DNA from: a virus
Length of the DNA: 38,117 bases
Strand: one strand, 5' to 3'
IMG/VR virus record: IMGVR_UViG_3300048592_000880
Span: 1 to 38,117 of that record
Numbering within the stretch: the first letter of the stretch is position 1; each line of letters starts with the position of its first letter. The translations under genes and the position numbers were made by a program. Under the pieces are notes generated by a model that saw only the letters and a program-made list of their open reading frames with translations, searched no databases and was not told the DNA's origin. Shown one piece after another: positions 18,067 to 37,475 of the stretch.

Positions 18067-18458
18067 GCGCCTTTCAGGGCTTTCACCCGGTATCTCGCCG
18101 TCTCTGCAAGAGATTCGAGCAGTTCAATTCCTTTGTGAACCTTTTTAACTTCGGCTTCCTTCTCCCGAAGCGTATAGCGGGCCGCGCGAAAGCGCTCATC
18201 CTCAAAAGCCTTGGCCTCACGCTCCTTGCCGGTCCCGCCCATGAACTTTTCCGTGATCTCTGATAAAAGCATGCGCTCTGATATTTCAAGCTGTGCAATT
18301 TCTTTTTCAAGCTCACACTTTTTATGCGAAAGCTCAGAGGAAAGGGTTATAAGGTCAATCTGAGCCCTGTATGCCTTATCAGGCCTTGGGTCCAGCAGGG
18401 CCTCGGCTGCCTCCTTGATTCTATCGTGTAGCGGCTTGTCCGCTTCCCTTTCTTTCAT
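18063..18458 (-). CDS. Coiled-coil protein between recombinase and terminase, unknown function
   Basis: About 131 residues, nearly all helical, with long heptad-like stretches (IDLITLSSELSHKKCELEKEIAQLEISERMLLSEI and EKEAEVKKVHKGIELLESLAETARYRVKAL). No known motif was recognised. The start ATG at 18458 overlaps the recombinase stop (TGATG); a GTG one codon earlier is possible. It overlaps the small terminase gene by 4 bases. Its place directly before the Nu1-like protein, which lacks a DNA-binding domain, suggests a packaging accessory role, but this is inference only. Confidence 0.75.
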   Translation of the reverse strand: MKEREADKPLHDRIKEAAEALLDPRPDKAYRAQIDLITLSSELSHKKCELEKEIAQLEISERMLLSEITEKFMGGTGKEREAKAFEDERFRAARYTLREKEAEVKKVHKGIELLESLAETARYRVKALKGA

Positions 18459-20011
18459 CACGAAGCCCTTTCGCCGAGTTTTTCAAAGAATGTTTCAGGT
18501 GGAAGCTTTTGGCTAATGGCTATGTACTTCGCCGTCTGATTGATTGAGGCGTGATCGAGCCGCCGCTGAATCTCGCGCATGCTCATCCCCTCGTTATGCC
18601 ATTCGATGGCGGCAAAGACCCGAAAGCTATGGGCTGATATGTCGGTCGGAAGCTGAAGCTTTCGTGAAAGATACTTGATGAGCCGCGTTACGCTCCTTTG
18701 GGAAAGGCTTCTATGGGGCCGCGTGTAGCTTTCCGGCAGTAGATAGGAGCTTTCAGGGTTTCCCTTGTGGTACTCGGCTTCATACTTTTCAATGAGCCTG
18801 TGCGTTGATCCATCCAGCGGGATTTCGTAAGGCTCATCCTTGACCTTGCTCGTAAGCTTTATATGGTGGTAGTTTCCGCGCCGCTCGATATCTGAAAGCC
18901 TCACGTTAAGTATGGCTCCGATCCTTGCCCCGGTCGTGGCCAGAAGATGCAGAAGTAGATGCTCCTTGGCCCGCCGCGCTTTTTCATAAGTCGCTTCCTC
19001 GGCCTCGGCCCGCTCCCTGGCCTTGTCTATCATGGCTTTCACGGCCTCAAGGCTCACGGGTTTTGTCTTGAGCTTGTTTTGATCGAGCCGTAGGCGCGGC
19101 GTATCCTCAAAGGGGTTTTCATCAATCCCCTTTTTTCGCTGCATGGTCTTATAGAGCCCGCGCATGGTGGAGATTTTTCGCGCAATCGTTGAAGCTGAAA
19201 GCCCCCGCGCCTTAAGATCGTTAAAGTAGGCTATGGCCTCATCCTCGCTGACGGTGAAAAGCGAAGTGAAGGGCCCGCGCTGGCGCATATACTCGGTGAA
19301 GGTCTTGAGGTCTTTGAGATAGCTTTCTATCGTGCTTTTTCCGCTGTAGCGCTGAAGATAGACCTGAACGAACCTCGCCGAATCCTGCTCAAGATGAAGG
19401 CCCTTTGTCTTCTCTTCAAGCGTTAAAACAGCCTCTATCTCTTCCCCTGAGCGTGTCCTTCGCTCAAGACGGGGGAGGCCCTTTGTGATTTCATAGTAGC
19501 TCGCGCGGCTGATCTTAAAGCGGCCTATCGTGATATCGCGCGGCTCTCCCTGCTTTTTCGCCTGGCGGACTTCATCGCGCGTTTTAAGGGAGATTTTGGG
19601 ACCAAAATAGCCCTTCTCTTTTTCCTTCTCCCTTCCCATGGCCATGGCTTTGAGAATGAAAAGGCCTTCATCAGCTCTCGGGTCATGGATAAAAAAGGGA
19701 TCGAGCGTAAGGAGCGTCACGGCCTCGGCCTCGCGGTCCTTAAGGGCCCGCATGACAAGCTCGGGCTCCCGAATTTCCGCCGCCGACCAGACTATGATTT
19801 TCCCCTGGCGCTCGATGCGGAGAATAAGATGCGCAAGGTCTTTTTCCTGGTTTTCATAGTAGGGGGATAAGGAGAGGTTCGCGGGATCGAGGTTTTTGGG
19901 AATCCTGCCGCCATGCTTTTTGAGAAGTATCGCCGCATATTTCTCCCTGGCCGTTTCGATCGAAACGCCGGAAGGCAGGTAAAACCAAAGCTCCTGGGCT
20001 CTTGATGACAT
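18458..20011 (-). CDS. Tyrosine recombinase with an extra N-terminal domain
   Basis: 517 residues from the ATG at 20011 (GAGG seven bases upstream); a TTG at 20038 would add nine. The C-terminal half is a tyrosine recombinase with all catalytic residues: Arg in TTGARIGA (363), Lys in TSKVKDE (389 or 391), HSFR (461, 464), His in RLDHA (487) and the Tyr in TAKY (496). A SAM-like core-binding domain (YSGKSTIESYLKDLKTFTEYMRQRG) precedes it. Residues about 10-180 are unusual: they resemble the body of a serine resolvase followed by a small HTH (RFKISRASYYEITKGL) but lack the catalytic Ser/Arg signature. It could integrate the phage or resolve dimers. The stop overlaps the next gene (TGATG), so it heads the packaging operon. 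Confidence 0.88.
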   Translation of the reverse strand: MSSRAQELWFYLPSGVSIETAREKYAAILLKKHGGRIPKNLDPANLSLSPYYENQEKDLAHLILRIERQGKIIVWSAAEIREPELVMRALKDREAEAVTLLTLDPFFIHDPRADEGLFILKAMAMGREKEKEKGYFGPKISLKTRDEVRQAKKQGEPRDITIGRFKISRASYYEITKGLPRLERRTRSGEEIEAVLTLEEKTKGLHLEQDSARFVQVYLQRYSGKSTIESYLKDLKTFTEYMRQRGPFTSLFTVSEDEAIAYFNDLKARGLSASTIARKISTMRGLYKTMQRKKGIDENPFEDTPRLRLDQNKLKTKPVSLEAVKAMIDKARERAEAEEATYEKARRAKEHLLLHLLATTGARIGAILNVRLSDIERRGNYHHIKLTSKVKDEPYEIPLDGSTHRLIEKYEAEYHKGNPESSYLLPESYTRPHRSLSQRSVTRLIKYLSRKLQLPTDISAHSFRVFAAIEWHNEGMSMREIQRRLDHASINQTAKYIAISQKLPPETFFEKLGERAS

Positions 20012-20231
20012 GAAAGGGCCTCGGGGTTTTGTAGGCAATTTCTGCCTAGCTCTTATGCTGCAAGGGATTGGTGACAGTTAAATTATACCGCGTGGACGCT
20101 CTGCGGAGAAGAAGCCCGCCTTTTTCCTTTGGCTGCAAGGGTTTGCCGGCTTTCAGTTATCGGCTCTCACCCCTCTCCGTCGCCGGCAAAGCCCGGTTAT
20201 GGTGAGTTGCTTGACTCCCGGCACCGGGAAA

Positions 20232-20263
20232 CTTAGGTTAAATTCGTACACGCGAATTTAAAG
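20232..20263 (+). repeat. 11-6-11 recombination/operator-like site A
   Basis: Left arm GGTTAAATTCG (20236-20246), spacer TACACG (20247-20252), right arm CGAATTTAAAG (20253-20263). The inner nine bases of the arms form a perfect inverted repeat. The 17 bases CTTAGGTTAAATTCGTA (20232-20248) recur exactly, inverted, at 23805-23821. An 11-6-11 layout is that of dif/Xer core sites, but a repressor dimer operator would look similar. Confidence 0.75.
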
Positions 20264-20308
20264 AAAAATTTCCAAAATATATCCACCTGAAATAAAAGAT
20301 GCTTTCCA

Positions 20309-20336
20309 GGTTAAACTCGTACCTGCGATTTTAGAA
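20309..20336 (+). repeat. 11-6-11 recombination/operator-like site B
   Basis: Left arm GGTTAAACTCG (20309-20319), spacer TACCTG (20320-20325), right arm CGATTTTAGAA (20326-20336). It starts 73 bp after site A, close to seven helical turns, in the same orientation. The arms are less symmetric than in site A. The left arm differs from those of sites A and C by one base. Confidence 0.65.
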
Positions 20337-20339
20337 TCT

Positions 20340-20377
20340 CATTTCGGTACATTTGGACGCATTTTGGTACCAAAATG
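20340..20377. promoter_or_regulatory. 18-bp perfect palindrome with upstream half-site, likely operator
   Basis: CATTTTGGTACCAAAATG at 20360-20377 is a perfect palindrome. A half-site CATTTCGGTAC lies at 20340-20350, 20 bp upstream in the same orientation (two helical turns). The arrangement suggests cooperative binding of a dimeric repressor upstream of the recombinase-led operon. The cognate regulator is not known; the HTH proteins at 23285 and 25690 are candidates. Confidence 0.65.
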
Positions 20378-20407
20378 GGTCAAAAATGGCGTTTTTTGGC
20401 AGGTAAC

Positions 20408-20425
20408 TTTTCCATACGTGGAAAA
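20408..20425. promoter_or_regulatory. Inverted repeat TTTTCCA-4-TGGAAAA
   Basis: A perfect 7-bp inverted repeat with four bases (TACG) between the arms, 30 bp beyond the 18-bp palindrome. It could be a further operator in the same control region. No T-run follows, so it is not a terminator. Confidence 0.45.
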
Positions 20426-20821
20426 TGTTGTCGGCTCACTTCCCCGCACCTGTTGCGGTGCTGGACTTTACCCTGTCGGCTGACTGGCCAATGCGGTCTG
20501 GTCAGCGTTAATATTCGGCACCGTCCACGCCCCGGCTTGGAATCTGTCCGATAACTGCGGATTTTGCCATAAGCCATTGATATGAATAGGAAAGATTGAA
20601 TCCCAATGATATCAGGGTCTTCGACTCTGAGGGGTCTGAAAGCTCGTCCAGACGGGCCTTACAATTGACCTATAAACGCCTTTCCCGGCAGATCCTCCCC
20701 TAACCCCGCCTCACTCCACGCAGTCCCACAGACGCAGACCTAACCCACCAGAAACATTAGGCTTTCAAAGGGTAAACGCGCCGCACTTACCTTGCGCCAT
20801 TGGGTCCTAACGTCAGAAAGA

Positions 20822-20847
20822 CGGCGCGGGTCAGGAGACCCGCGCCG
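20822..20847. terminator. Strong 11-bp GC hairpin
   Basis: CGGCGCGGGTC (20822-20832), loop AGGA, GACCCGCGCCG (20837-20847): a perfect stem of very high GC. On the plus strand a T-containing stretch (GTTTCAGACATTTTT) follows; on the minus strand TCTTTCT follows. It could terminate an unrecognised RNA or antisense transcription from the 22-kb minus-strand genes. Direction is not certain. Confidence 0.5.
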
Positions 20848-20945
20848 GTTTCAGACATTTTTCCCAAGTTTTTCAATAGGATGCGCATTGATTTGGCGGG
20901 GTAGATAGGTCTAAAATGGCGGATTTTACCCTAAAAAAAGGTAAG

Positions 20946-20999
20946 GTGCTATTATAATTGGAAAAATTTGCCCAATTCGAGCCAAATAAGCACTTTTTT
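20946..20999 (+). terminator. Nested hairpin followed by six T
   Basis: GTGCT (20946-20950) pairs with AGCAC (20989-20993) and AATTGG (20956-20961) pairs with CCAATT (20972-20977), followed by TTTTTT (20994-20999). It looks like an intrinsic terminator for a plus-strand transcript, but no gene ends just upstream. A TATAAT at 20953-20958 inside it could instead be a -10 box. Confidence 0.4.
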
Positions 21000-21173
21000 C
21001 GTGACAAGATAGCCGACGGTCAAAAAGATGCCGTTAAAAGTCCACTTCAAGGCGTTTGAGATACTGAGCCAGGATAGATCAATTTGCATAAAGCCCTCCA
21101 GGTCGGGATGATCCCAGCCATAATGTTATGCAATCCCTGTTCCCGTGTAAAATGGACTTACCGGAGGACTCCT

Positions 21174-22001
21174 ATGAACAAGCTCTTGATTGCCGGCCTC
21201 TTCGCCTGGCCGGTTGCCGCCATTGTCGGCTACGATGCAATGAACCGTGGTCCCATTACGACCTTCGCCGCCGAGACGCTGCGCATCCTTCAATGCTCAG
21301 ATAAGCTTCCCAACGGTATGCCGTGCCCGAGCCCTAAAACCGCCCAATCAATCCCAGCGGTGAAGCCGCCAGCAGGAACTGAAAACCTTACCGTCTGGGC
21401 TGACACCGATTCAAATAAACCAGGCCTCATCCTTGAACGAGGCTCCGGGCTCGCAGCGGCTCCTGGTGGACTCTGGGCTGACCAGGTGTATTCGGGCCTT
21501 AAGGATGGGCAGAAGCGTCTTGTAATTGATAATGGACAATGGCTTGGCGATAACTCTGGCCTCAAGGGAGATAAAGGGGATAGCTGCGAGGTTATCCCAG
21601 GAGGCAATGACCCAAGAATTGTCTGCGGAACTACGTTCATCCCTCTTTCAGAACTCAAGGGAGGGAAGGGGGATAAAGGTGATCCAGGACCAGGCTGCAC
21701 TATATCTTCCACTGGTGATGTTAAATGCGGGACGGCTCCCGCCGTCAACGTCCGAGGTCCAAGGGGAACCTTCGCCGGTTGCCGCATAGAGACGCAGGAC
21801 ACGAATACGACCAGCGCAGTTCTTACTGTTACCGCCAGGTGTCAGGCAGGGGAAATTCTCACGGGCGGTGGCTGTTCCACGGGGTCTGACTCAACCACCG
21901 TTAACGCATCCGTGCCGTCTGATAATTCCTATACTTGCGCTTTCGTTGCAAGGCCTAACACATTGATACGCGCTGAAGCTATCTGCTGCCGCACAAACTA
22001 G
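21174..22001 (+). CDS. Exported collagen-like protein
   Basis: 275 residues from the ATG at 21174, which has GGAGGA six bases upstream; the open frame starts 90 bases earlier without a ribosome site. An N-terminal hydrophobic segment (LLIAGLFAWPVAAIVGY) acts as signal peptide or anchor. The middle holds interrupted collagen-like Gly-x-y runs (GLKGDKGDS, GGKGDKGDPGPG, VRGPRGTFAG), and the C-terminal domain is Cys- and Thr-rich with paired Cys near the end. It lies alone on the plus strand outside the structural operon. Collagen-like repeats occur in phage fibres, but the leading hydrophobic segment argues for a protein displayed by the host cell, for example lysogenic conversion or exclusion. 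Specific function is unknown. Confidence 0.8.
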   Translation: MNKLLIAGLFAWPVAAIVGYDAMNRGPITTFAAETLRILQCSDKLPNGMPCPSPKTAQSIPAVKPPAGTENLTVWADTDSNKPGLILERGSGLAAAPGGLWADQVYSGLKDGQKRLVIDNGQWLGDNSGLKGDKGDSCEVIPGGNDPRIVCGTTFIPLSELKGGKGDKGDPGPGCTISSTGDVKCGTAPAVNVRGPRGTFAGCRIETQDTNTTSAVLTVTARCQAGEILTGGGCSTGSDSTTVNASVPSDNSYTCAFVARPNTLIRAEAICCRTN

Positions 22002-22007
22002 CTTCCC

Positions 22008-22331
22008 TTATGCTGGTAACTGCTCAAAGCCTGAAGTTTGCTGACTAGCCAAGTTATTGTTTGACTTGGCTTTGGCAGCTCTTTTCTTCAACACCTCAGA
22101 CCTTATTTCCTCCAAAAGCTCTTCGAGGGTATTAAAGCCAGGGCTTTTGCTGGCGGCTCGGTTTGGCGAGAACTCCCAAAGGCCGTAGCCACCACCCCAG
22201 CTCGCGGCTGGGTCCAGTGTTAGAAAGCTCCCAGGCCAGCGATTGCCAGCATATTCGTCAACCATCGCTCTCATTTCAACGTCTGGAACCATATCTTCCA
22301 CGCTTCTGTATAAATCTTCAGGTCTTTTCAT
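22008..22331 (-). CDS. Unknown small protein, downstream of the 146-residue basic protein
   Basis: 107 residues. The N-terminus is acidic (PEDLYRSVEDMVPDVEMRAMVDEY), the middle has Trp/Gly (SWGGGYGLWEFSP), and the end is a short helix with a basic patch (EELLEEIRSEVLKKRAAKAKSNN). It overlaps the stop of the upstream gene by 4 bases (ATGA), so the two form a coupled pair. No family was recognised. It ends six bases from the convergent collagen-like gene, with no terminator visible between them. Confidence 0.65.
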   Translation of the reverse strand: MKRPEDLYRSVEDMVPDVEMRAMVDEYAGNRWPGSFLTLDPAASWGGGYGLWEFSPNRAASKSPGFNTLEELLEEIRSEVLKKRAAKAKSNNNLASQQTSGFEQLPA

Positions 22332-22768
22332 TTCCGCTTCCCTTTTACTTTCTTTGCCGCTGCTGCCGCTGTCTTCTTAGCTGTCTTGCCTTTGGCCTGG
22401 GCTGGTTTCACAAGGGCCTTCAATTTTGTTTTCAGTTCATCAAGAGCTGCGAGGATTGCTGGAATATCCTGCCCTTTGACTCTTTCGGGACTTTCATCAA
22501 TCAAGCTGCTGTATCTTGAAATCGTGGATTTAAACCCGTAGATTGCCCATTCTGCGCTTCGCTGCTCCTGCTTATCCTTTTTTTCCTTGATGAATGCCTC
22601 GATCTCGCTCATTTCCTCTTCGGTTGGCGGGCACTCCTCGTCAGGCTTGAACGTGTAGTCATAGTTATCAATCGTCCCAATCTTTTTGACTATGGCGTGT
22701 CGCTTTTCCTTATCATAGCCGCGATAGGACAGGACGCGAAAATTCCGCTTTCCCTCTAAAAACTGCAT
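22328..22768 (-). CDS. Basic DNA-binding-like protein transcribed away from the iteron array
   Basis: 146 residues. The N-terminus is a compact basic segment (LEGKRNFRVLSYRGYDKEKRHAIVKKIGTID), the middle is helical and acidic, and the last 30 residues are an Ala/Lys tail like that of histone H1 or other non-specific DNA binders. The repeat array at 22.8-23.09 kb begins 36 bases upstream of its start codon, so it may be regulated by that array or bind it. I do not recognise the family. It could take part in replication, partition or chromatin-like packaging. Confidence 0.7.
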   Translation of the reverse strand: MQFLEGKRNFRVLSYRGYDKEKRHAIVKKIGTIDNYDYTFKPDEECPPTEEEMSEIEAFIKEKKDKQEQRSAEWAIYGFKSTISRYSSLIDESPERVKGQDIPAILAALDELKTKLKALVKPAQAKGKTAKKTAAAAAKKVKGKRK

Positions 22769-22789
22769 GAACTTCCCTCAGCTCTTTGT

Positions 22790-22806
22790 CTGCAAAGGAT
22801 TTGCAG
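22790..22806. promoter_or_regulatory. Inverted repeat CTGCAAA-3-TTTGCAG
   Basis: A perfect 7-bp inverted repeat separated by GGA, 22 bases upstream of the start codon of the basic protein and touching the first iteron copy. It is a plausible operator for that gene. Confidence 0.5.
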
Positions 22807-23088
22807 ACTGTCTAAACTTTCTAAAATACTGTCTTCGGAATGTCAACTTATATCTTCATATTATCGAAGACAGTATTAATTATTTTAAAGACTGTCTTCA
22901 TAGTTATTGATGACTATATTCTGTATTTTGATGACTGTCTTCAAACTTTCTGGAGACAGTAGAATGACAGTCTCTTTAATTTTGACGACTGTCTTTATAT
23001 CTTCGATGATAATGATGACTGTCTTCAAATATAACTAATACTGTCTTCAATAAAATGATGACTGTCTTCGTAAATTGTGATGACTTTC
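22805..23088. repeat. Iteron-like array of GATGACTGTCTTC, candidate origin
   Basis: The 9-mer ACTGTCTTC occurs seven times exactly: 22828-22836, 22866-22874 (inverted), 22891-22899, 22934-22942, 23018-23026, 23040-23048 and 23061-23069. Degenerate copies are at 22806, 22911, 22953 (inverted), 22984 and 23079. The full 13-mer GATGACTGTCTTC appears at 22930, 23014 and 23057. One pair, AATACTGTCTTCG (22825-22837) and its inverse (22865-22877), forms a 13-bp inverted repeat. Spaces between copies are AT-rich. This looks like the iterons of a theta-replicating plasmid or the P4 origin. A repressor-binding array is the alternative. Confidence 0.75.
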
Positions 23089-23284
23089 GCTTCCTGCGCT
23101 ATGATGGCTTGAAAAGAAAGGGGGAAGTGATCTAAAAACCCCCTCCCGGTGTATGGTATTGAAGGCCTTGAGACTCAAGGAGCGTCATTATGATGAAAGG
23201 CGCATTCTAAAAAATCCAGCAAACTACCCATTTATGATCGCTCGGGCGGGGCTCTGCTGCGCCATGATTGGACGCTAGAGACTC
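23089..23284. other. Intergenic stretch with hairpin and 15-bp palindrome
   Basis: No supported gene. GGGGG and CCCCC flank an AT-rich loop around 23120-23148. CCTTGAG-A-CTCAAGG (23166-23180) is a 7-bp inverted repeat with one central base. AAGGAG at 23177 is followed by ATG at 23190, but that frame closes after six codons. The region separates the array from the 3' end of the HTH gene. Confidence 0.5.
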
Positions 23285-23767
23285 CTAGGCCCCGCCAGAA
23301 TCTGGGCCCGAAAGTCCTAGCCCCGCAAGAATACTATAACGATACCTGGCCACGTCCTGGGGATTCCGTTGCAGCCCCTGGCGCTCGAAGCCTTCGAGCC
23401 CGCGAAAGCCTGCAGAACGGCTGGCGCTTAGAAGTTTTGCGAATGCCGATGGCATGTGATGTTCTCGCCCATCCTCTGCGCGTCTTATCTGCATTTGTAG
23501 GTAGCGGTCCATTGTGAGAACGCGATGCAATAGCTTAAGCCTCTTCACGTTGACTCTGGCCGTACTCACCGCATTTATCAGCTCATGCCTCACGTATAGA
23601 AATCCCGCGTACTTCTCACAAAGACGCCTGACAGCCAGCACGCTCTTGTCAGTTCTTTGCGATATCTCCTGAAAGGTCAGCCGCTCAGCATCTTCGAGCT
23701 TTTCACTTATCAGCCATTTGGCAGGCGGGCGACCGTAGCCGCCCCGGTTGTGCTGTTCGTTCTCCAT
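23285..23767 (-). CDS. Putative HTH DNA-binding protein
   Basis: 160 residues, basic. After a Gly/Arg-rich start, LTFQEISQRTDKSVLAVRRLCEKYAGFLYVRHEL at about residues 30-65 has the spacing of a helix-turn-helix and winged helix. The rest is helical and Arg-rich (VKRLKLLHRVLTMDRYLQMQIRR) with a Gly-rich tail. Site C (11-6-11) lies 22 bp upstream of its start codon, so it may be controlled by the protein that binds sites A-C, possibly itself. It could be a phage repressor or an initiator acting on the adjacent array. No specific family was recognised. Confidence 0.65.
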   Translation of the reverse strand: MENEQHNRGGYGRPPAKWLISEKLEDAERLTFQEISQRTDKSVLAVRRLCEKYAGFLYVRHELINAVSTARVNVKRLKLLHRVLTMDRYLQMQIRRAEDGREHHMPSAFAKLLSASRSAGFRGLEGFERQGLQRNPQDVARYRYSILAGLGLSGPDSGGA

Positions 23768-23789
23768 GTCTGAAAAAGCCCCTCTTCTT

Positions 23790-23821
23790 AGATAACTTCG
23801 TATCTACGAATTTAACCTAAG
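23790..23821 (-). repeat. 11-6-11 recombination/operator-like site C
   Basis: On the plus strand: AGATAACTTCG (23790-23800), spacer TATCTA (23801-23806), CGAATTTAACC (23807-23817). The inverse of the right arm is GGTTAAATTCG, identical to the left arm of site A. With flanks, 17 bases (23805-23821) match site A exactly in inverted orientation. It lies between the divergent HTH gene and the 55-residue membrane protein gene, about 3.5 kb from site A. Confidence 0.75.
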
Positions 23822-23867
23822 CAGGCTTTGGAATGCTATCCTAAATCAGAATTTCAGGGGGAATTGC

Positions 23868-24035
23868 TTGAATAGACGTATGCAGGAAATAGACCCGCTA
23901 GCACTCATCCACGCGATGAAAAGTGGAGGACGCAATCAAACCAGAAGCCCAGCGAAGCGTATTTTTGCGGCTCTTGTCCTGATTGTGGCTCTCTTTGCAC
24001 TCGGATTTCTAGCCTGGAAAATTCAGCGAACATAG
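23868..24035 (+). CDS. 55-residue single-span membrane protein
   Basis: I place the start at TTG 23868, with AGGGGG six bases upstream; an ATG at 23880 is in frame but too far from that site. The product starts MNRRMQEIDPLALIH, has a basic segment (RSPAKR) and then one transmembrane helix (IFAALVLIVALFALGFLAW), ending KIQRT. Basic residues on both sides of the helix suggest N-in, C-out or a dual topology. It could be a small holin, an exclusion protein or an inner-membrane partner of the nearby exported proteins. No holin was otherwise found in the genome. Function is not established. Confidence 0.6.
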   Translation: MNRRMQEIDPLALIHAMKSGGRNQTRSPAKRIFAALVLIVALFALGFLAWKIQRT

Positions 24036-24189: not shown

Positions 24190-24762
24190 CTACAAAGCAA
24201 AAACACCTTCCTTTATAGCCTTATCGTATGTCACAAACATTAGTGGAAGCTCCCTTGAGCCTGCATTTTCCACTGTGTAATTATAAAATGATTCTGATTC
24301 AGGTTTACCTGGGAAGAACATTTGAAAGCTGTCTTCAGACGCTGTAACCGCTGACCCGCTTAACTTCTCTTCACTTCTGGAAAGTGAAATAGCAAGATTA
24401 AACTTTTTATCTTTGTCCTTCAACTCAAACCTAGCCGTCAGGTAACTACACCAGGAAGCGCCAGTGCATTTTGGTTTTATTGAGTCAAACTCAGGTGGAA
24501 GAACGCTTTCAGACGAAAGCGGAAAAATACATGAAGTGAATTCCACGCTATAGGATGGGGCATAGGTTTCAATGAACCATGAAACAAAAGCCTTTTGAAC
24601 GTCGCAGCTATCTGCATTGGAATTTAGCTTAAGCGGCTGAAGTCCGTTCAAAGACAGCGGCGCGGGCATAACTTTTTGCTCGGGCACGCTCTCTTTACTG
24701 TCTTCAGAACCACAGCCGACAAACAGAGCACAACTTGCTATAATCAAAAGATTTTGTTTCAT
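24190..24762 (-). CDS. Lipoprotein, unknown function
   Basis: 190 residues. The N-terminus MKQNLLIIASCALFVGC is a classical lipoprotein signal with lipobox LFVGC, so Cys17 would be lipidated after cleavage. The mature part starts with a charged linker (GSEDSKESVPEQK) and continues as a beta-rich domain with two close Cys (PKCTGASWCSYL). No family was recognised. It follows the exported-protein gene at 24774 by 11 bases and is probably in the same operon. A role in surface exclusion would suit a prophage lipoprotein, but that is inference. Confidence 0.78.
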   Translation of the reverse strand: MKQNLLIIASCALFVGCGSEDSKESVPEQKVMPAPLSLNGLQPLKLNSNADSCDVQKAFVSWFIETYAPSYSVEFTSCIFPLSSESVLPPEFDSIKPKCTGASWCSYLTARFELKDKDKKFNLAISLSRSEEKLSGSAVTASEDSFQMFFPGKPESESFYNYTVENAGSRELPLMFVTYDKAIKEGVFAL

Positions 24763-24773
24763 GGACTAGCCCT

Positions 24774-25400
24774 TTAAATCAGTACCGAAGCGTCTTGCTT
24801 CAGCTTCTTCAGACATTCGTTACCTGCTGATAAATCATTGGCTGCTGTCATGCAACCCAGAAAGTTATCAAAAACGGTGGTGTATTTCTCAGGGACCAAG
24901 CCTGGATTTGGCGAAGAGTAGTCAATATTTCCAAGGTCCATCCCCTCCAGAATCAGGATGAAAGCTTCGCCATCATGTATAAGATCTCTTTTCCAGTCTG
25001 GAGCGTCCTGGATGGCCACAGCAACCTTTTGTGATCTTGCTTTGGCTCTGCCCGCGTACTCTTCGATGGCGAGCACTGCTAAGGTATATTCCCGCGTCCC
25101 TGGCAGTATGAGCGTTGCAAAAGTAATTGGATATTTATCCAGTGCATACTGGAGGTTTGGCGGAAGTCTTTTATACAGAGAAACCCACTCATTCTTGATG
25201 TTTTCATAAGCGGCCCCGACATCTTTTCCGAGGTATTCAATGGACTTTGAAGCATCTTCAATGTTGCAAAGTTTGGTCTTTGCAATACATTTCCCATTGA
25301 ATGGGTTCCGCGCTATACATTCCATCCAACAGCCTGCGAAAGCACTTTGAGACGCAACAAAGCTGGCCAACAGAGCCGACGACATGAGAAATTTCTTCAT
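24774..25400 (-). CDS. Exported Cys-containing protein, unknown function
   Basis: 208 residues from the ATG at 25400, which has AGGAG about eight bases upstream; a start at 25463 would place 21 polar residues before the signal. The start KKFLMSSALLASFVASQSAFA is a clear signal peptide with AFA cleavage site. The mature N-terminus carries a Cys pattern (GCWMECIARNPFNGKCIAKTKLC), then a helical domain. Two more Cys lie near the end. It precedes the lipoprotein gene by 11 bases. The domain is not recognised. It probably resides in the periplasm with disulfides. Confidence 0.75.
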   Translation of the reverse strand: MKKFLMSSALLASFVASQSAFAGCWMECIARNPFNGKCIAKTKLCNIEDASKSIEYLGKDVGAAYENIKNEWVSLYKRLPPNLQYALDKYPITFATLILPGTREYTLAVLAIEEYAGRAKARSQKVAVAIQDAPDWKRDLIHDGEAFILILEGMDLGNIDYSSPNPGLVPEKYTTVFDNFLGCMTAANDLSAGNECLKKLKQDASVLI

Positions 25401-25689
25401 TTTCAAAACTCCTTTTGAAGTAAATGCAAGCTGCATTGCCTGCATGCTGACATAAGAAAACATACGGACGTAACGATGCTATGCACGCTCATCGAGACTT
25501 AGCTTAAATTTGTTATTTGTTTTCTTAACCCTTGATGCTCAGGGGTTTCGAGACTTTTTGCTTAGGTGATTTCTAACGTAATTTTTTCCTGAAAAACCCG
25601 CAAGCTCAGACGCTTGCTGTGTTGAAGTATTCTCTTGGTGATGATAATTTTCATCTCCATGGAGATAATGAAAGCAAGGAGGCTATAAG
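25401..25689. other. Divergent promoter region with repeated motif and palindrome
   Basis: Between the divergent exported-protein gene and the HTH gene. CGAGACTT occurs at 25493-25500 and 25549-25556, each followed by a CTTA motif, 56 bp apart. At 25498-25515 a degenerate match to the start of sites A and C (CTTAGCTTAAATTTGTTA) is present. ATCTCCATGGAGAT (25653-25666) is a perfect 14-bp palindrome just before the HTH ribosome site AAGGAGG (25676-25682). Confidence 0.55.
25653..25666. promoter_or_regulatory. 14-bp palindrome upstream of HTH regulator, likely operator
   Basis: ATCTCCATGGAGAT is perfectly symmetric and lies 23 bp before the start codon of the regulator. It sits between the probable promoter and the ribosome site, so it fits autorepression. 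The outer flanks TTTTCAT and ATGAAA extend the symmetry with an offset of one base. Confidence 0.55.
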
Positions 25690-26418
25690 ATGGGACCATC
25701 AGCAGGCGAAGATTTGCAGGCTCTTGTTAGAGCTTGGGCCAATGAAAACCCTGACATTAGAAACATTAGATTTCTTGAGCGAAAGGCTGGGATTGATTAC
25801 AACACCGCTTCCCGCGTGTGGTCAGGAAAAAACCCTGAATGCCAGACAGCTCTTGCCGTTCTAAACGTCGTTACAACTAAAGAAAACGGCCTTTCATATC
25901 TCAAAAGGCACTTCCCTCACGCTGCCCGATTTCACGAAAGAGAGTTTAGTATCCCGGTTTTCTCTGATCGTGATACCCTACAGCCCTTGTTTGATAAGTC
26001 TTTGAGCTTTATTATCCTCGGACTTGCTTATGGTGGCCATGCTGATAAAGGCTACATCCAAAGAATTTATGGCGAGATGGGTTTGCAAGCTGCAAACGAG
26101 CTGGTCAACACAGGGAAGTTTTTCTGGGAAGGTGAAAAGCTTATATCTCAAGGGAAAGAAGAATTTTTCACGTTTGAGAGCAGAGAAGACATCGTTAAGG
26201 CATGTGGTCATATTCTGGGAATGGCAGCCTCTGGAGGCTACCCTGTAGCCCTTCTTGGGTCTTTGCACGATGACGAGTTGGAACGCTTCAAAAATCTACT
26301 TCGGGAATTTTGCTTGGCCGCGAAAGAGCTTGTATATTCATCTAAAGCGGGTGGTAAGAACATCATTGCCTTGTCAACGGTCTATGTCAGTCTGCTCGGC
26401 GAAGGAGAAAAATCATGA
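25690..26418 (+). CDS. HTH regulator with a large C-terminal domain
   Basis: 242 residues, with AAGGAGG seven bases before the ATG. The N-terminal 75 residues look like a Cro/CI-type HTH: IRFLERKAGIDYNTASRVWSGKNPECQTALAVLNVV. The C-terminal about 150 residues are helical and unrecognised (LSFIILGLAYGGHADKGYIQRIYGEMG, ELERFKNLLREFCLAAKEL). It has the overall plan of multi-domain regulators common in Bdellovibrionota and related groups. It overlaps the small exported-protein gene by 4 bases (ATGA), so the two are co-produced. It may be the lysogeny repressor or a local regulator that senses a ligand. Confidence 0.72.
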   Translation: MGPSAGEDLQALVRAWANENPDIRNIRFLERKAGIDYNTASRVWSGKNPECQTALAVLNVVTTKENGLSYLKRHFPHAARFHEREFSIPVFSDRDTLQPLFDKSLSFIILGLAYGGHADKGYIQRIYGEMGLQAANELVNTGKFFWEGEKLISQGKEEFFTFESREDIVKACGHILGMAASGGYPVALLGSLHDDELERFKNLLREFCLAAKELVYSSKAGGKNIIALSTVYVSLLGEGEKS

Positions 26419-26702
26419 AAACATGCCTTACACTTTTCGTCCTTGTAATGAGCGGGACTGCGTTTGCGTTTACTGGCGGCGGGTCGGGAGGCACACCACC
26501 AGCGCTTCAGGATTATGCGGAAATCATGGACATTCGGACGGATGAATTTAACGCTCTCGCCTTGGATGCTCTGAGTCGCAAGCCTTTGAACCTTGGCGGA
26601 AGGCTGTTCAAGCCTCAAAAAATTGATCTTGAAAGCCGCTCGATTCAGTACCAGGCGCTGGCACCAAATGAGCCGCCCCTTCTTATTAAAGAGACAGAAT
26701 AG
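26415..26702 (+). CDS. Small exported protein coupled to the HTH regulator
   Basis: 95 residues with a signal peptide (KTCLTLFVLVMSGTAFA) and a Gly-rich mature start (FTGGGSGGTPPALQDY). The mature part of about 75 residues has no Cys and is acidic to neutral. It overlaps the regulator by 4 bases and is followed by a terminator, so the pair is a complete transcription unit. A regulator paired with a short exported peptide resembles peptide-signal cassettes such as quorum-type lysis-lysogeny switches, but that analogy is speculative. Confidence 0.7.
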   Translation: MKTCLTLFVLVMSGTAFAFTGGGSGGTPPALQDYAEIMDIRTDEFNALALDALSRKPLNLGGRLFKPQKIDLESRSIQYQALAPNEPPLLIKETE

Positions 26703-30080: not shown

Positions 30081-30096
30081 TAAATTATCTCTTAGC

Positions 30097-30132
30097 AATA
30101 TCCTCTCAACATACTGGGAGGATATTTTTTTT
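30097..30132 (+). terminator. Intrinsic terminator upstream of the partition operon
   Basis: AATATCCTC (30097-30105), 12-base loop, GAGGATATT (30118-30126) and an eight-T tract (30125-30132). It would end a plus-strand RNA started within 29.7-30.05 kb, where no protein gene is seen. This supports a small RNA or an attenuated leader of the partition genes. Confidence 0.65.
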
Positions 30133-30169
30133 GCAAAAACACATTCAAAACATATTTTGAGGGTACAAA

Positions 30170-30222
30170 AGATATGCGTTGAATATGGATGAGATAGCTT
30201 GATAAGATATCGTTTAGAGATA
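30170..30222. repeat. AGATA repeats, candidate parC centromere
   Basis: AGATA occurs at 30170, 30192, 30205 and 30218, with spacings of 22, 13 and 13. It surrounds the likely promoter and ends 30 bp before the ParM start. Centromeres of ParM systems are sets of short direct repeats around the par promoter. The repeats here are short, so confidence is limited. Confidence 0.35.
30179..30208 (+). promoter_or_regulatory. Probable promoter of the partition operon
   Basis: TTGAAT (30179-30184), 18-base spacer, TAAGAT (30203-30208), about 45 bp upstream of the ParM start. Repeats overlap it, so the adaptor protein could repress it. Confidence 0.45.
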
Positions 30223-30252
30223 ATTTGCATATTTTAGAAAATGGAGTTTCTA

Positions 30253-31317
30253 ATGTTCAGCCATTCCCAGTCCCTTGATCTTCGCTATGCTATCAATCCC
30301 TCATGCGTGGCGAAGCTGCCCGAGTTCTTCAAGCACGACGGCGACCAAATTGGCTTCAATGATAAATATTTTGCCGTAGGAAGCATCTGTCTCGATACAG
30401 CGGCGGGCCTCAATTGGGATCGCCCCATAAATGCGATGCCGGATAGCGAAGAATGGCGGGCTCTTTTTTATCACGGGCTGGCTCTACATAATAAAACCGA
30501 TATGACCGTGGTCACGGGGTTGCCGCATACCTCCCGCATGGCTCTTCAAGCTGCAGGACGGCTGGACTCGATTATTCCCAGAGGCGATATAGAGTTGACC
30601 CTGGCTCATGACGGAAAGCTCATGAAGAGGCGCAAGCATATCCTCGCGGCCTATGTACGCTCCGAGTGTGAAGCCCATGCGCTGGCCTTCCGCCGCTACT
30701 ACGGCGAGCCCTCCCTTGTTATTAGCATTGGCTTCGGAACCGTGGAGCTGGGAGCCTGTGATAAATCCGGGCGGGTCATCGAAGGATCGCTTGATAGCAA
30801 GACCTATGGCCTGCATCACTGCGCGAAAGACCTGCGGGATACGCTTGTGGGCCTCCAGTACGAGCGCCCGCAGGTGAAAGACACTCAGTTTAGCTTTTTC
30901 GATAAGATCCTTAAAGACGTTTACGGCGATGATCCGCGCTTTTGCCTCAGAAGCCGCAACAGAAAAGGCGTCATCGAACGCGAAGAGCTTTTGCCTTACT
31001 GTGACAAAATCCTTGTTAACTACGGTGAGAGGCTTATTGAGCAGCTTGAGAGCTATTTCTATCGTTTTGATGGACAAATGCCCGTCACCCTCACTGGCGG
31101 CGGGACTCTATACGATATCCTCATGGATAAGCTCGCCGATTATATCGAATCGCTAAAATATGAGGTCAGGATAGCAGACAAGGAAATGAGTATACTGAGC
31201 GCGGCTCTGGGTTACAAAATCATTGCGGAAACGATTGACCCGGAAAATGGTGCAGGCGTTGACGTTGGTAATAGCTCATCTGTAACGATTCTTCCTAACG
31301 ATGGAGTCCTGAACTAA
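30253..31317 (+). CDS. parM: ParM-like actin, plasmid segregation
   Basis: 354 residues from the ATG at 30253, chosen because GGAG lies six bases upstream; an ATG at 30241 has no ribosome site. The actin-fold signatures of the ParM/StbA group are VVTGLPHTSR (near 87), the phosphate-2 loop ISIGFGTVELG (near 157) and the adenosine motif VTLTGGGTLYDIL (near 282), with a C-terminal IADKEMSILSAALGYK like ParM tails. The phosphate-1 loop near the N-terminus (SQSLDLRYAIN) is degenerate. ParM forms dynamic filaments that push plasmid copies apart. TAATG overlap with the next gene supports a parM-parR operon. Confidence 0.8.
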   Translation: MFSHSQSLDLRYAINPSCVAKLPEFFKHDGDQIGFNDKYFAVGSICLDTAAGLNWDRPINAMPDSEEWRALFYHGLALHNKTDMTVVTGLPHTSRMALQAAGRLDSIIPRGDIELTLAHDGKLMKRRKHILAAYVRSECEAHALAFRRYYGEPSLVISIGFGTVELGACDKSGRVIEGSLDSKTYGLHHCAKDLRDTLVGLQYERPQVKDTQFSFFDKILKDVYGDDPRFCLRSRNRKGVIEREELLPYCDKILVNYGERLIEQLESYFYRFDGQMPVTLTGGGTLYDILMDKLADYIESLKYEVRIADKEMSILSAALGYKIIAETIDPENGAGVDVGNSSSVTILPNDGVLN

Positions 31318-31703
31318 TGGCAAAGAGCGGAAACACCAGGGTCAATCTACTGTATACGCCGCAGGAAGCGGAACCTCAGAAGAAATATCTGAGGGATCTA
31401 CTGAAGCAAGGCCTTGTTGTAAATGGCGTCCTGAAGCTTAAAGGAAAGCTGCTTGCAGAGTATTTGATTCTGGAAGCCGCGCGAATGCTGGACCCCGACT
31501 TTCCCCAGGACTTTGGCAGTAGCGACACCACGGAAGAGGCACCGAAAGAGCCGAAACCCCGTAAGGTCATCGCTCCGAACGGCCAGGCTTCCAAGCCTGG
31601 AGCTTCTGCGACAAACGCGGGTCAAAAGCCGCCAAGGCAAAGGATGGCCCCGCCGAGCCAGCAGCAGCTACAGGACGCGAAGGATGCACTTGGGTTAAAA
31701 TAG
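31317..31703 (+). CDS. Probable ParR adaptor
   Basis: 128 residues, overlapping the ParM-like stop by one base (TAATG). The first 65 residues (NTRVNLLYTPQEAEPQKKYLRDLLKQG ... KLLAEYLILEAARML) have a strand followed by helices as in ribbon-helix-helix adaptors. The C-terminal half is Pro/Lys-rich and probably unfolded until it binds the filament, as in ParR. The call depends on position after a ParM-like gene, size and general composition. No direct family match was possible by eye. Confidence 0.65.
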   Translation: MAKSGNTRVNLLYTPQEAEPQKKYLRDLLKQGLVVNGVLKLKGKLLAEYLILEAARMLDPDFPQDFGSSDTTEEAPKEPKPRKVIAPNGQASKPGASATNAGQKPPRQRMAPPSQQQLQDAKDALGLK

Positions 31704-31950: not shown

Positions 31951-31980
31951 AGCCAGGGTTCAAACCCTGGCTTTTCTTTT
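31951..31980. terminator. Bidirectional terminator between partition operon and dnaK
   Basis: AGCCAGGGTT (31951-31960) pairs with AACCCTGGCT (31963-31972), a 10-bp stem with a very short apex. A run of T follows on the plus strand and a run of eight A precedes it, which becomes T on the minus strand. It can end both the plus-strand operon and the convergent dnaK. Confidence 0.9.
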
Positions 31981-33763
31981 ATGAGAGGCGCTTAATGTCT
32001 CTCACTGTCTTTGTCAGCTCACCCGAGTCAATGGACTCTTCGAGTACACGGCCAGCCTCTTCGGCCCTGACGGCCAAAGCTTGCGCGGCTTTCTGGTCCC
32101 TTGCTTCCTCGGCCTTTTCCTCTATTCTCTTGATCTCGCGCGAAAGCTCGGCGCGTGCAGAGTTCAAAAGCTTCCGGTCATTTTCAGGCATGGAAAGCTC
32201 TTTTTGCTTTCTTCGTACTTCTTTCTTATCAAGGCGTCCAGAGTTCTTTAAAATTACTTTCTGCTCCTGGCCGGTGGTTTCATCCACGGCTTTAACTTCG
32301 AGAACGCCGTCAGCGTTGATGGTGTAGGTTACGAGGATTTGCGGCACGCCTGCGGGCCTCGGCTCGATACCTGTAACAAGGATTTCTCCAAGAAGGTTAT
32401 TTTCAGAGGCTTTGCGGCTCTCGCCCTGAAAAATCCTCAGCTCGGCTTCTTCCTGATTGTCAACAGTGGTTGAAAATGTTCCAGTCTTGGTCACTGGAAC
32501 GGCGCTGGATTTTTCTATAATAACAGACATGACATCGCCAATCTCTTGAAGGCCAAGAGATAGAGAGGTTACATCAATAAACTCTGCATCAATTTCGCCT
32601 TTGAGAATGCCGGCGTGAAGCGCCGCGCCTGCGGCAACGAGTGTATCAACGCCCTCCCCTTCCAAAGGCTTCTGGCCGTGGAATGCACGGATTTTCTCTT
32701 TCACAAGAGGAATCCGCGTGGAGCCTCCGACCAAAAGAATATGGTTAAGATCGGACGCTTTCATTTGAGCTTCCTGGAGAGCCTTCTTCATGTCCGCAAT
32801 TGTGGAGTCAATCATGCTCTCTATAAGGCTTTCAAACTCTTTTCGGGTGACGCTTTGCTCAAGGTTCACGGGGCCAGAAGGACCCTGCATAAGGAAAGGC
32901 ACGAGAATGGTGGCGCTCTCCTTCCTCGAAAGCTCGATCTTTGCCTTGACTACAGCTTCCTTGACTCGGGCCATGGCCTCGCGGTTTTCGGCAATATTGA
33001 AGCCTGTTTCAGCCGAAAAGCGGCTTAAAACTTTCGTCATCAATGCTTCGTCAAAGTTGTCACCGCCCAGGAATGGATTGCCGCCCGTGGTGATAACCTC
33101 AAAGGAATTGTCTTTTATCTTCAAAATTGAAAAATCGTATGTTCCGCCGCCAAGGTCATACACGCCAATGGTTTGCTCATCTTCGATGTCCTGACCATAG
33201 GCAAGCGCTGCGGCGGTGGGTTCGTTTATCAATGCTTCGACATTCAGGCCGGCAATGCGTGCGGCGTCTATGGTCGCTTGTCTCTGGCGATCATTAAAAT
33301 AGGCTGGAACGGTAATAACTGCGCTGGTTACGCCCTTTCCAAGGTAGGCTTCTGCGATTTCCTTAAGCCTCTTTAAAACTTCAGCTCCGATCTCTTCAGG
33401 CGTTTTGATTGTCCCGTCGATCTCGAAAGCGGCTTCCTTGTTATATCCTGGGCGAACGATAAACGGCACGGTCCAGGTGGTTCCAAGCTTTTTCACTGCT
33501 TCAAAATCCCGGCCTATGAATCGCTTGGCGCTGAATATCGTCTTCGCTGGATTGAGAGCCAATTGTCTTAAGGCCATCTCCCCGACCAAAACAGAACCAT
33601 CCTTTGCATAGGCAACCACGGAAGGCAGAGTGAAAGGGCCTTCAGGGGTTTCGAGAATCTTTGGCTTTCCGTCTTCGAGCACGGCAACCACTGAGTTTGT
33701 AGTACCCAGATCAATCCCGATGGTTTCAGAACTACTCAGCAAATTTTTAATAAACGAAAGCAT
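31979..33763 (-). CDS. dnaK: DnaK-type Hsp70 chaperone encoded by the phage
   Basis: 594 residues from the ATG at 33763, with GGAG nine bases upstream (an ATG two codons earlier is possible; the longer frame to 33826 is unsupported). All Hsp70 ATPase signatures are intact: IGIDLGTTNS, NEPTAAALAYG, VYDLGGGTYDFS and LVGGSTRIP. The linker reads DVTSLSLGLQE (usually DVTPLSLG), then a beta substrate domain and a shortened helical lid; host DnaK is usually about 640 residues. No DnaJ or GrpE gene is nearby, so host partners would be needed. Possible roles are remodelling replication initiators, as DnaK does for P1 and lambda, or folding virion proteins. Hsp70 genes are rare in phages. Confidence 0.93.
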   Translation of the reverse strand: MLSFIKNLLSSSETIGIDLGTTNSVVAVLEDGKPKILETPEGPFTLPSVVAYAKDGSVLVGEMALRQLALNPAKTIFSAKRFIGRDFEAVKKLGTTWTVPFIVRPGYNKEAAFEIDGTIKTPEEIGAEVLKRLKEIAEAYLGKGVTSAVITVPAYFNDRQRQATIDAARIAGLNVEALINEPTAAALAYGQDIEDEQTIGVYDLGGGTYDFSILKIKDNSFEVITTGGNPFLGGDNFDEALMTKVLSRFSAETGFNIAENREAMARVKEAVVKAKIELSRKESATILVPFLMQGPSGPVNLEQSVTRKEFESLIESMIDSTIADMKKALQEAQMKASDLNHILLVGGSTRIPLVKEKIRAFHGQKPLEGEGVDTLVAAGAALHAGILKGEIDAEFIDVTSLSLGLQEIGDVMSVIIEKSSAVPVTKTGTFSTTVDNQEEAELRIFQGESRKASENNLLGEILVTGIEPRPAGVPQILVTYTINADGVLEVKAVDETTGQEQKVILKNSGRLDKKEVRRKQKELSMPENDRKLLNSARAELSREIKRIEEKAEEARDQKAAQALAVRAEEAGRVLEESIDSGELTKTVRDIKRLS

Positions 33764-33901
33764 TTTCATCAGCTCCGAGCAAGGGAAGAGAAAGAGCAAG
33801 GGGATTGCCCATGGTTTCCTGTGCATGATTCAAGCCAGCAGGATTTGATAGAAAAAACAGAAACTTACCTTTTGTAAGAGCGTCCAGGGCCGCCACTGCG
33901 G

Positions 33902-33923: not shown

Positions 33924-34002
33924 AACTCGTTGTAATATTTGAATTAAATTGATACAGAGTCACCATAAGTTGACTCTACTGCCAATTCAGGTTATTTTCA
34001 GG

Positions 34003-34037
34003 TTCAAGATATTGGCATTTTTGCCGATAAGCTTGAA
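34003..34037. promoter_or_regulatory. Imperfect inverted repeat before the antitoxin gene
   Basis: TTCAAG (34003-34008) and GGCA (34014-34017) face TGCC (34022-34025) and CTTGAA (34032-34037), around a four-T centre, 20 bp before the antitoxin start. Such antitoxins bind palindromes at their own promoter, so it is a good operator candidate. Confidence 0.55.
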
Positions 34038-34057
34038 CGATAAACCTGGGGTTTTTT

Positions 34058-34441
34058 ATGACGGCTGTATTCCAAACAAATGACCCATTTGTAAATGACA
34101 GCGGCGCACCTGATCTTGCAGAATACAAAAAACTGTTTGGCTTTAGAAATATCGCCAAGGAGCTTGGGAAAATCATAGGCGAGGAAACAGAGTCAAACAT
34201 AAGGCAGGAGCGGGCTCTATACCTTTTGAATAATCCAAAGTTTCTCGATATCAAAACCATTGCATCCATTCTCTATACTCAATACAAGGATGTAGAGAAA
34301 TGTAGAAAATGGTTAATCTCGGGCCGCGCTGAATGGTTCGGGCAAAGCCCACTCGATCTTATAAAGGTTGGCAGGACTGACTTTGTAGCTGATTATCTGA
34401 AACAGGCAACCCACCCGCTCGGGATGACATTCGGGGGATAA
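34058..34441 (+). CDS. Xre/MbcA/ParS-type antitoxin of a RES toxin
   Basis: 127 residues. The C-terminal part CRKWLISGRAEWFGQSPLDLIKVGRTDFVADYL at about 81-115 follows the MbcA/ParS/Xre toxin-binding pattern: a helix, a small-residue turn, PLDLI, then a last helix. The N-terminal half (GFRNIAKELGKIIGEE) may be a reduced HTH. It is directly followed by the RES-type toxin gene (one base between), the normal antitoxin-first order. It should bind and block the toxin and repress the operon with it. Confidence 0.78.
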   Translation: MTAVFQTNDPFVNDSGAPDLAEYKKLFGFRNIAKELGKIIGEETESNIRQERALYLLNNPKFLDIKTIASILYTQYKDVEKCRKWLISGRAEWFGQSPLDLIKVGRTDFVADYLKQATHPLGMTFGG

Positions 34442-34442
34442 T

Positions 34443-35171
34443 TTGAATCAGCAGGAGATAAAGGACTATCTCGAATTTGTTGAAAGCCTCGGTGCTCTTA
34501 AAGTCGATGGTGACAAGCTCAAGGATTATCAGGACACGCAAAAGTCCCTGCAGCAAGCCATACAGTCTTTCTATGATGAAGCGTCTTCAAAGATTAAGAA
34601 AAGCGATGCAAAAAAACTCTCCCGAAAGGTGGAAGGTTTTTTTGTCAAAAGCATGTATCTTCCCTATGCTCTTGACCCATTGAGCCCAGCAGGGTCAAAG
34701 TATAGGGACGGTCGCTTTCATCGCAAGTCGATCGCTGAGACTGTGAAAAAATTTGAGTGCTTTTATCTCGGCGCAAATGAGCATGTTGTTAGCGCGGAAT
34801 GTCTGATTAACCCGTTTGAAGTCAAAAGCCCAAGGGTCAATGTCTGGGTAGAGGTTTCCCTAATCAATGTTTTTGATTGCACTGACCTTGTGCGGAAGTT
34901 TCCTTTCCTCGATATCGTGAGCCGTGAGCCATGGGAAGGCATTGCAACTTTCACAACGCCCTTCACACAGCTTTTTGGTCAGTTTCTGGCTTCTCAGGAT
35001 TATTCGGCGATTCAGTATCAATCCGCACGTATGCCGGATTCTCAAGCTAAAAATCTCTGCGTCTTTCCCGCAAATATATCAAAAGGCGAGTCCATCCTGG
35101 TCATGGACCCTAACAAGACTTACGATGAATTGAAAGACGTTGACAGGGACAAGCTTAAAATCCAGCCCTAG
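34443..35171 (+). CDS. RES-domain toxin (NAD-degrading family)
   Basis: 242 residues, starting at TTG with GGGGGA just upstream. The RES-type signature can be followed: Arg in GSKYRDGRF (88 or 91), then CFYLGANEHVVSAEC with Glu119, and Ser194 in YSAIQYQSAR, with KNLCVFP after it. Known RES toxins of MbcT/Res type degrade NAD and stop growth of cells that lose the antitoxin. Residues 1-75 are an added helical region not needed in small RES proteins. It ends two bases from the convergent patatin gene, with no obvious terminator. Confidence 0.78.
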   Translation: MNQQEIKDYLEFVESLGALKVDGDKLKDYQDTQKSLQQAIQSFYDEASSKIKKSDAKKLSRKVEGFFVKSMYLPYALDPLSPAGSKYRDGRFHRKSIAETVKKFECFYLGANEHVVSAECLINPFEVKSPRVNVWVEVSLINVFDCTDLVRKFPFLDIVSREPWEGIATFTTPFTQLFGQFLASQDYSAIQYQSARMPDSQAKNLCVFPANISKGESILVMDPNKTYDELKDVDRDKLKIQP

Positions 35172-35173
35172 AG

Positions 35174-36950: not shown

Positions 36951-37475
36951 CTATACACGCCTTTTTAGAGCTCTCACGGCCGCTGCCTTTGTACGCCGAG
37001 ATTTGAGGGGCTTTCTCGAAGGGTCAAACGGCTGATAAACAATCTTTTTGCTAGCGCCCACGCGGGAGCGTGAGAGGTACTGAAGCCGTGGCTTTACTAT
37101 CGAAACATGAAGAACATTCTGGTCATATTCCACAATACACTGGTCAACGGGAAGCTTCAGCTCAAAGACCTTCCTTGCCAGCTCTTCAATGGATACGCCC
37201 TTGACGGAAATGTCTGCGGCCTCTCCGCGCTCGTGCTGGCTTCCAGGAACGCCGCCAGCCAGAAGATTGACCTCCTTGCTGCGATAGCCTGAGCTGACAG
37301 TTATGACCTTTCCAAGCGCAGTCCTAAGCGGCTGAAGCACCGCCTCACAGAGATAACGAAGGTTTTCCAAGGCCTCAGCCGTTGGGACGTTTGGGAGCTT
37401 TTTGCGCCTTGCTATGTCTGACCGTGTGAATTCGGAAAGCCAGAAATTTTCGCTAAGTTGAACATCACCTTTCAT
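36951..37475 (-). CDS. M15-type peptidase, probable endolysin
   Basis: 174 residues. SGYRSKEVNLLAGG at about 62-75, then SQHERGEAADIS with H81 and D88, and the third ligand H123 in VLHVS form the zinc site of M15 D-Ala-D-Ala carboxypeptidase or L,D-endopeptidases. The last 45 residues are a basic tail (RKPLKSRRTKAAAVRALKRRV), which might help cross or destabilise the outer membrane. It overlaps the stop of D by 4 bases. It cuts cell-wall peptide stems and is the best lysis enzyme in this genome. No signal peptide is visible, so a holin would be needed. Confidence 0.88.
   Translation of the reverse strand: MKGDVQLSENFWLSEFTRSDIARRKKLPNVPTAEALENLRYLCEAVLQPLRTALGKVITVSSGYRSKEVNLLAGGVPGSQHERGEAADISVKGVSIEELARKVFELKLPVDQCIVEYDQNVLHVSIVKPRLQYLSRSRVGASKKIVYQPFDPSRKPLKSRRTKAAAVRALKRRV

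Follow-up and report, generated by a model that had tools for sequence, protein, structure and literature searches.

Do short inverted repeats beside a phage recombinase gene mark a site-specific recombination system, or are they the targets of a regulator? This question is raised by the IMG/VR virus record IMGVR_UViG_3300048592_000880, whose whole stretch of 38,117 nucleotides (called the window here) carries three imperfect palindromes, sites A, B and C, around a tyrosine recombinase gene and an accessory block. The original prediction offered both answers: the sites could recombine, with A and C inverting the 3.5 kb between them, or they could be operators through which one regulator controls the late operon and a helix-turn-helix (HTH) gene. 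Our analysis favours, with moderate confidence, the operator interpretation, in which the three sites are bound by a dimeric regulator that the phage encodes, most likely the winged-helix-like protein p160. This is preferred over recombination because sites of the same motif stand beside the p160 gene in a second phage, which has no such recombinase.

All three sites are intergenic, and each has 28 bp made of two dyad-related 11-bp arms around six bases (11-6-11), the geometry of a dif/Xer core. Site A (20236-20263, plus strand) is GGTTAAATTCG-TACACG-CGAATTTAAAG, site B (20309-20336, plus strand), which starts 73 bp from the start of A, is GGTTAAACTCG-TACCTG-CGATTTTAGAA, and site C (23790-23817, minus strand, read from 23817 to 23790) is GGTTAAATTCG-TAGATA-CGAAGTTATCT. 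Positions, geometry and the A-B distance were all as predicted, and so were the 17 identical nucleotides, CTTAGGTTAAATTCGTA, common to A and C in inverted orientation; a repeat search returned these two sites as arms of 29 nt with 86% complementarity. The dyad symmetry of the arms is 9/11 in A, 7/11 in B and 8/11 in C, with one arm better conserved than the other. The three spacers differ, agreeing at 4/6 positions between A and B and at 3/6 both between A and C and between B and C. The TA at the start of the spacer, part of the predicted motif, is a feature of every site in the window that the second phage does not share.

The three sites are a real feature of the window and not a chance set. 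In a less biased test, any 28-mer with at least 7/11 dyad matches and a 6-base gap was admitted, and the best triple was chosen by its minimum pairwise identity; this was 19/28 in the window, compared with at most 18 in 300 dinucleotide shuffles. A post-hoc test of the pattern gave 0.01 expected matches per shuffle. A looser test of the arms only was less impressive: the window was equalled by 1 of 60 shuffles when the gap was 6, and by 15 of 60 when gaps from 0 to 12 were allowed. What makes the sites significant is therefore the 28-mer taken whole, the fact that all three are intergenic and, most of all, the motif found independently in the second phage.

An exact pattern with a symmetric core, TTAAATTCG-N6-CGAATTTAA, was scanned against the 2.9 million contigs of IMG/VR, and two contigs, L184 and L185, matched. 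The former lies in IMGVR_UViG_3300048592_000629 (G001), a 39,131-bp genome that is probably circular, as judged by its 144-bp terminal repeat. G001 has four sites, at 24321, 24842, 37231 and 37559, with the motif GTTAAATTCG-N6-CGAATTTAAC and four further spacers, and the same pattern read backwards had no matches in it. The consensus of the seven sites in both phages is GTTAAAYTCG-N6-CGAATTTAAC, with seven different spacers, as would be expected of an operator spacer that is not contacted. A matrix made from these sites scored them at 24-35, the highest score over 400 shuffles being 19.8, and in either phage a signal appeared with a gap of 6 only. Because the matrix was built from the same seven sites, its scores are descriptive, and the independent evidence is the presence of a p160 gene beside a site that had been located from the DNA pattern only. 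In L185, no p160 homologue was found in the 11.7 kb of the contig, and its palindrome may be due to chance. Elsewhere, the site pattern had three matches in 84,980 genomes, none of them near window-type genes and two of them (in Pseudobutyrivibrio) reading as coding by eye, and an earlier viral pattern scan had given eight matches, none palindromic.

The p160 gene (23285-23767, minus strand) encodes 160 amino acids. Its homologue in G001 is 47% identical over the full length (48% over 149 aa, E 5e-42, for the match in L184), with a length of 155-160 aa in both phages, and in both phages a palindrome ends 20-23 nt upstream of the start codon. In G001, the homologue is located between two sites, one 20 nt before its start and the other just past its stop, and 3 of the 4 sites are 5' of genes, these being p160, a lipoprotein-like one (about 24947) and an HTH-like one of 96 aa (start at 37160). 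Neither a homologue of the window recombinase nor any PF00589 protein was found in G001, therefore the motif is independent of a phage tyrosine recombinase. The predicted structure of p160, a winged HTH followed by helices, is of low confidence (predicted local distance difference test, pLDDT, 64), and the nearest solved structures are the DNA-binding domains of pSK1 Par, RacA and MerR-type regulators, with Z scores of 5.5 or less that are within background. As a conserved protein with a winged-helix model that is linked to the sites in both phages, p160 is the natural candidate for their binder. No further homologues were found in annotated phages or plasmids, and both the p160 family and the motif are apparently undescribed. 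A separate 19-nt non-coding sequence, AAGTGATCTAAAAACCCCC, is also identical in the two phages near p160 (window 23125-23143; G001 23833-23851, L191:3833-3851), a match for which about 0.01 would be expected by chance.

Apart from this region, the two genomes have little in common. In a blastn comparison, the sole DNA match was a 50-bp stretch inside the p160 gene, the terminase types differ, and so do the partition genes, with ParA in G001 and a ParM-like protein in the window. At the protein level, they share DnaK (50% identical) and a patatin-like protein (31%). DnaK is full-length in both (window 31979-33826; G001 33948-35810), an unusual cargo for a phage. From their gene content, both look like phage-plasmids.

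If p160 is the regulator, the arrangement of the sites suggests how it could act. Copies of the motif stand by several transcription units as well as by the p160 gene itself, as is found with operators. A p160 dimer would read one arm with each subunit, and the six spacer bases would not be specifically contacted. Site C is located between p160, which starts at 23767, and a small plus-strand open reading frame (ORF; 23871-24035) that is divergent from p160 across C and appears by eye to encode a single membrane helix. The 26-bp core of C stops 23 nt short of the p160 start codon, directly 5' to the Shine-Dalgarno region, and p160 bound there could autoregulate its own transcription and perhaps also control the divergent small gene. 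Sites A and B are in a 1.1-kb gap with the recombinase gene on one side and a collagen-like gene on the other; the recombinase gene is their nearest neighbour and the first gene of the minus-strand late operon. Between A and this gene, about 150 nt from A, there is a TATAAT hexamer (20082-20087, minus strand), a candidate -10 element of the recombinase and late operon, with no good -35. From upstream of this hexamer, p160 at the A/B pair could act on the recombinase-terminase-structural operon, perhaps through looping or by binding cooperatively. The prediction that one regulator acts on both late operon and HTH gene holds in outline, as the motif tracks the HTH gene in two phages, while the HTH protein as binder and the resulting regulation are only suggested by this arrangement.

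Several points weigh against this interpretation. The single promoter-like hexamer of the late operon lies well away from A and B, neither of which covers a clear promoter, and the better conservation of one arm in the window is not required by a symmetric homodimer. In G001, one site is within coding sequence and another, one of the three that are 5' of genes, overlaps a stop codon: one palindrome lies inside a 402-aa gene and the next is on the stop of that gene, bracketing its C-terminal 100 codons (24842-24867, 37231-37584). It is therefore possible that the sites have additional or structural roles. The co-occurrence of motif and p160 rests on two phages only, annotated phages and plasmids yielded no further p160 homologue, and both phages have other regulators, namely the XRE-type p242 in the window and a weak counterpart of it in G001. 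Finally, what we propose about p160 as the binder, about the sign of the regulation and about an effect on the late operon is inferred from the sequence.

The recombinase next to A and B makes recombination a tempting alternative. Its gene (18458-20011, minus strand) probably starts at ATG 20011, and the C-terminal two thirds of the protein match XerC/XerD models, with an apparently complete catalytic set of R372, K398, H470, R473, H496 and Y505 (526-aa numbering, counted from TTG 20038). The N-terminal 190 aa or so had no match in Pfam, NCBIfam, PDB sequences or plasmids, where the idea that they are a decayed serine recombinase was likewise unsupported, and a structure predicted without relatives was unusable (pLDDT 34). 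No close relatives of the recombinase, terminase, primase/helicase or DnaK were found in viral contigs, nor of the recombinase in genome contigs. Profile scans by alignment with the terminase and VapE revealed no contig with a recombinase relative, the terminases found being at most 37% identical and the primases at most 44% over the best segment.

With such an enzyme at hand, A, B and C could be Xer-type sites that bound exchangeable cassettes (B to C in the window, 24321-24842 in G001) and are used by the phage recombinase, a host Xer enzyme or both, in which case A, beside the recombinase, could be a resolution site. In line with this, the conserved arm has, from a reading of the sequence, its TTAA in register with that of the XerD arm, the site stays beside the gene in Xer systems with a single recombinase (PMC5357621), and cassettes in Acinetobacter plasmids are flanked by pdif/xrs sites in inverse orientation whose central regions diverge (PMC11705084, PMC12907356). 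B (plus) and C (minus) are also inversely oriented, flanking p160, p146, p107 and the collagen-like gene; in G001 p160 is again between two sites, but without the other genes of the window block. However, Xer sites need closely related central regions, and xrs sites without them failed to recombine in Acinetobacter baumannii (PMC11705084), whereas the sites here agree at only 3-4 of 6 positions within the window and have seven spacers over the two phages. The conserved part of dif is the ATAA/TTAT flanks of the central region (PMC11705084), and in their place the inner arm bases here are TTCG/CGAA. As the spacers differ and these flanks are missing, an inversion between A and C is unlikely, the more so as G001 keeps the motif without a PF00589 recombinase, although a host enzyme could still act there. 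The composition of the A-C block is unremarkable (73rd percentile of 3.4-kb windows), with no sign of foreign origin, and no E. coli-like dif above chance was found in the window. Considering all of this, we regard cassette boundaries of the Xer type as unlikely, and it is quite improbable that they are an undescribed Xer-like boundary of phage-plasmids, with variable spacers, at which a recombinase of host or phage exchanges a p160 cassette between phages that otherwise differ. A and C also resemble the terminal inverted repeats of a transposon; no target duplication or transposase was seen in or around the block, and this idea was rejected.

A regulator other than p160 could instead use the sites, with p160 being a mere target: either p242 (25690-26418) or a host factor exploited by both phages. 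XRE-like proteins, each about 245 aa long and weakly similar at the N-terminus, are encoded by both phages, a possible degenerate half-site (25498-25513, plus strand, CTTAGCTTAAATTTG; matched by 15 of 300 shuffles) is in the p229/p242 intergenic region, and P1 is a precedent for dispersed operators served by one repressor (PMC8546580). However, p242 and its G001 counterpart align over only 53 aa (30% identity, E 0.002 in a two-sequence comparison), while the motif is almost identical and p160 is 47% identical, and neither XRE gene has a full-strength site close by. When genomes were scanned with the window pattern, a narrow one, no plausible host sites were found. We therefore consider a different regulator a doubtful possibility. 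A centromere-like or DNA-organising role, in which p160 would bind dispersed palindromes to segregate or fold the plasmid prophage, seems less probable than either another regulator or Xer-type boundaries. It would suit the phage-plasmid look of both genomes, with their ParM-like and ParA genes, the sites that are outside promoters, the four dispersed palindromes of G001, as N15 has four centromere inverted repeat (IR) sites (PMC7205306), and the pSK1 Par and RacA domains as top structural neighbours, although a Z of 5.5 is within background. The role is made less likely by the partition motors, which differ between the phages and are each followed by a candidate adaptor gene of their own, p128 in the window and a 102-aa gene with a ribbon-helix-helix-like look after ParA in G001. 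The p160 gene adjoins neither motor gene, and the site at its start is placed like an autoregulatory operator.

The window has a 127-bp terminal direct repeat (1-127 = 37991-38117), which points to a 38-kb genome that is most likely circular, and it encodes a GpA-type terminase, a lambda-type portal, a capsid protein, a VapE-type primase/helicase, DnaK and a ParM-like partition protein (a weak match), making it most likely a plasmid-like phage. The region 30241-31703 contains the ParM-like gene followed by p128, whose 128-aa product looks like a DNA-binding partner, with a 28-nt inverted repeat upstream (30082-30226); this is likely to be a partition operon, which would suggest a plasmid-like prophage. 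A RES-domain gene preceded by a 127-aa ORF (34058-35171) looks, by position, like a toxin-antitoxin pair of the RES/Xre type. Upstream of p146, about eight unevenly spaced copies of GACTGTCTTC/TACTGTCTTC make up an AT-rich array (22827-23069) that G001 lacks; they may be iterons or form a binding array. A weak possible fourth site (26527-26552, plus strand, TGGACATTCGGACGGATGAATTTAAC) is within an ORF and scored at about the 95th percentile of shuffle maxima.

The tempting but weak claim of an invertible, dif-like switch is thereby replaced by a testable one, a 26-bp palindrome and a winged-helix family in two mostly different and probably circular phages. It also illustrates that 11-6-11 geometry beside a tyrosine recombinase is insufficient to call an Xer site. 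If p160 is the binder, this would give access to how late genes and the phage recombinase are controlled; no cultured member of this phage group was found in this analysis.

Compared with known systems, the sites resemble dif and pdif/xrs in their two 11-bp arms around 6 bp, the XerC/D-like recombinase nearby and, as in pdif pairs, divergent central regions and an accessory block enclosed by inversely oriented sites, and differ from them in the inner TTCG/CGAA, in the seven spacers for seven sites and in being kept by a phage without a tyrosine recombinase. Cre-loxP of P1 is similarly a recombinase-adjacent site in a plasmid phage, and the right arm of C, ATAACTTCGTAT (window 23792-23803), is identical to 12 bases of the loxP arm. 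As the arms are 6 and not 16 bases apart at the shared CG, unlike the lox geometry, this identity is probably a coincidence, and the recombinase matched Xer models with no Cre match seen. The N15 sites IR1-IR4, bound by SopB, are likewise inverted repeats, few in number and dispersed over a plasmid prophage, but they have another sequence and geometry, no SopB/ParB-like domain was detected in p160, and each of our phages has other partition genes of its own. A parallel to the operators proposed here is found in P1, where one repressor, C1, serves 22 dispersed, asymmetric operators of 17 bp (PMC8546580), one motif again being found at separate transcription units of a plasmid-like phage. In the two phages described here the palindromes number three and four, measure 26-28 bp and leave the 6-base spacer free, and they are linked to a protein for which no C1-like match was found; they probably represent a small dispersed regulon of a phage regulator, which is an ordinary class.

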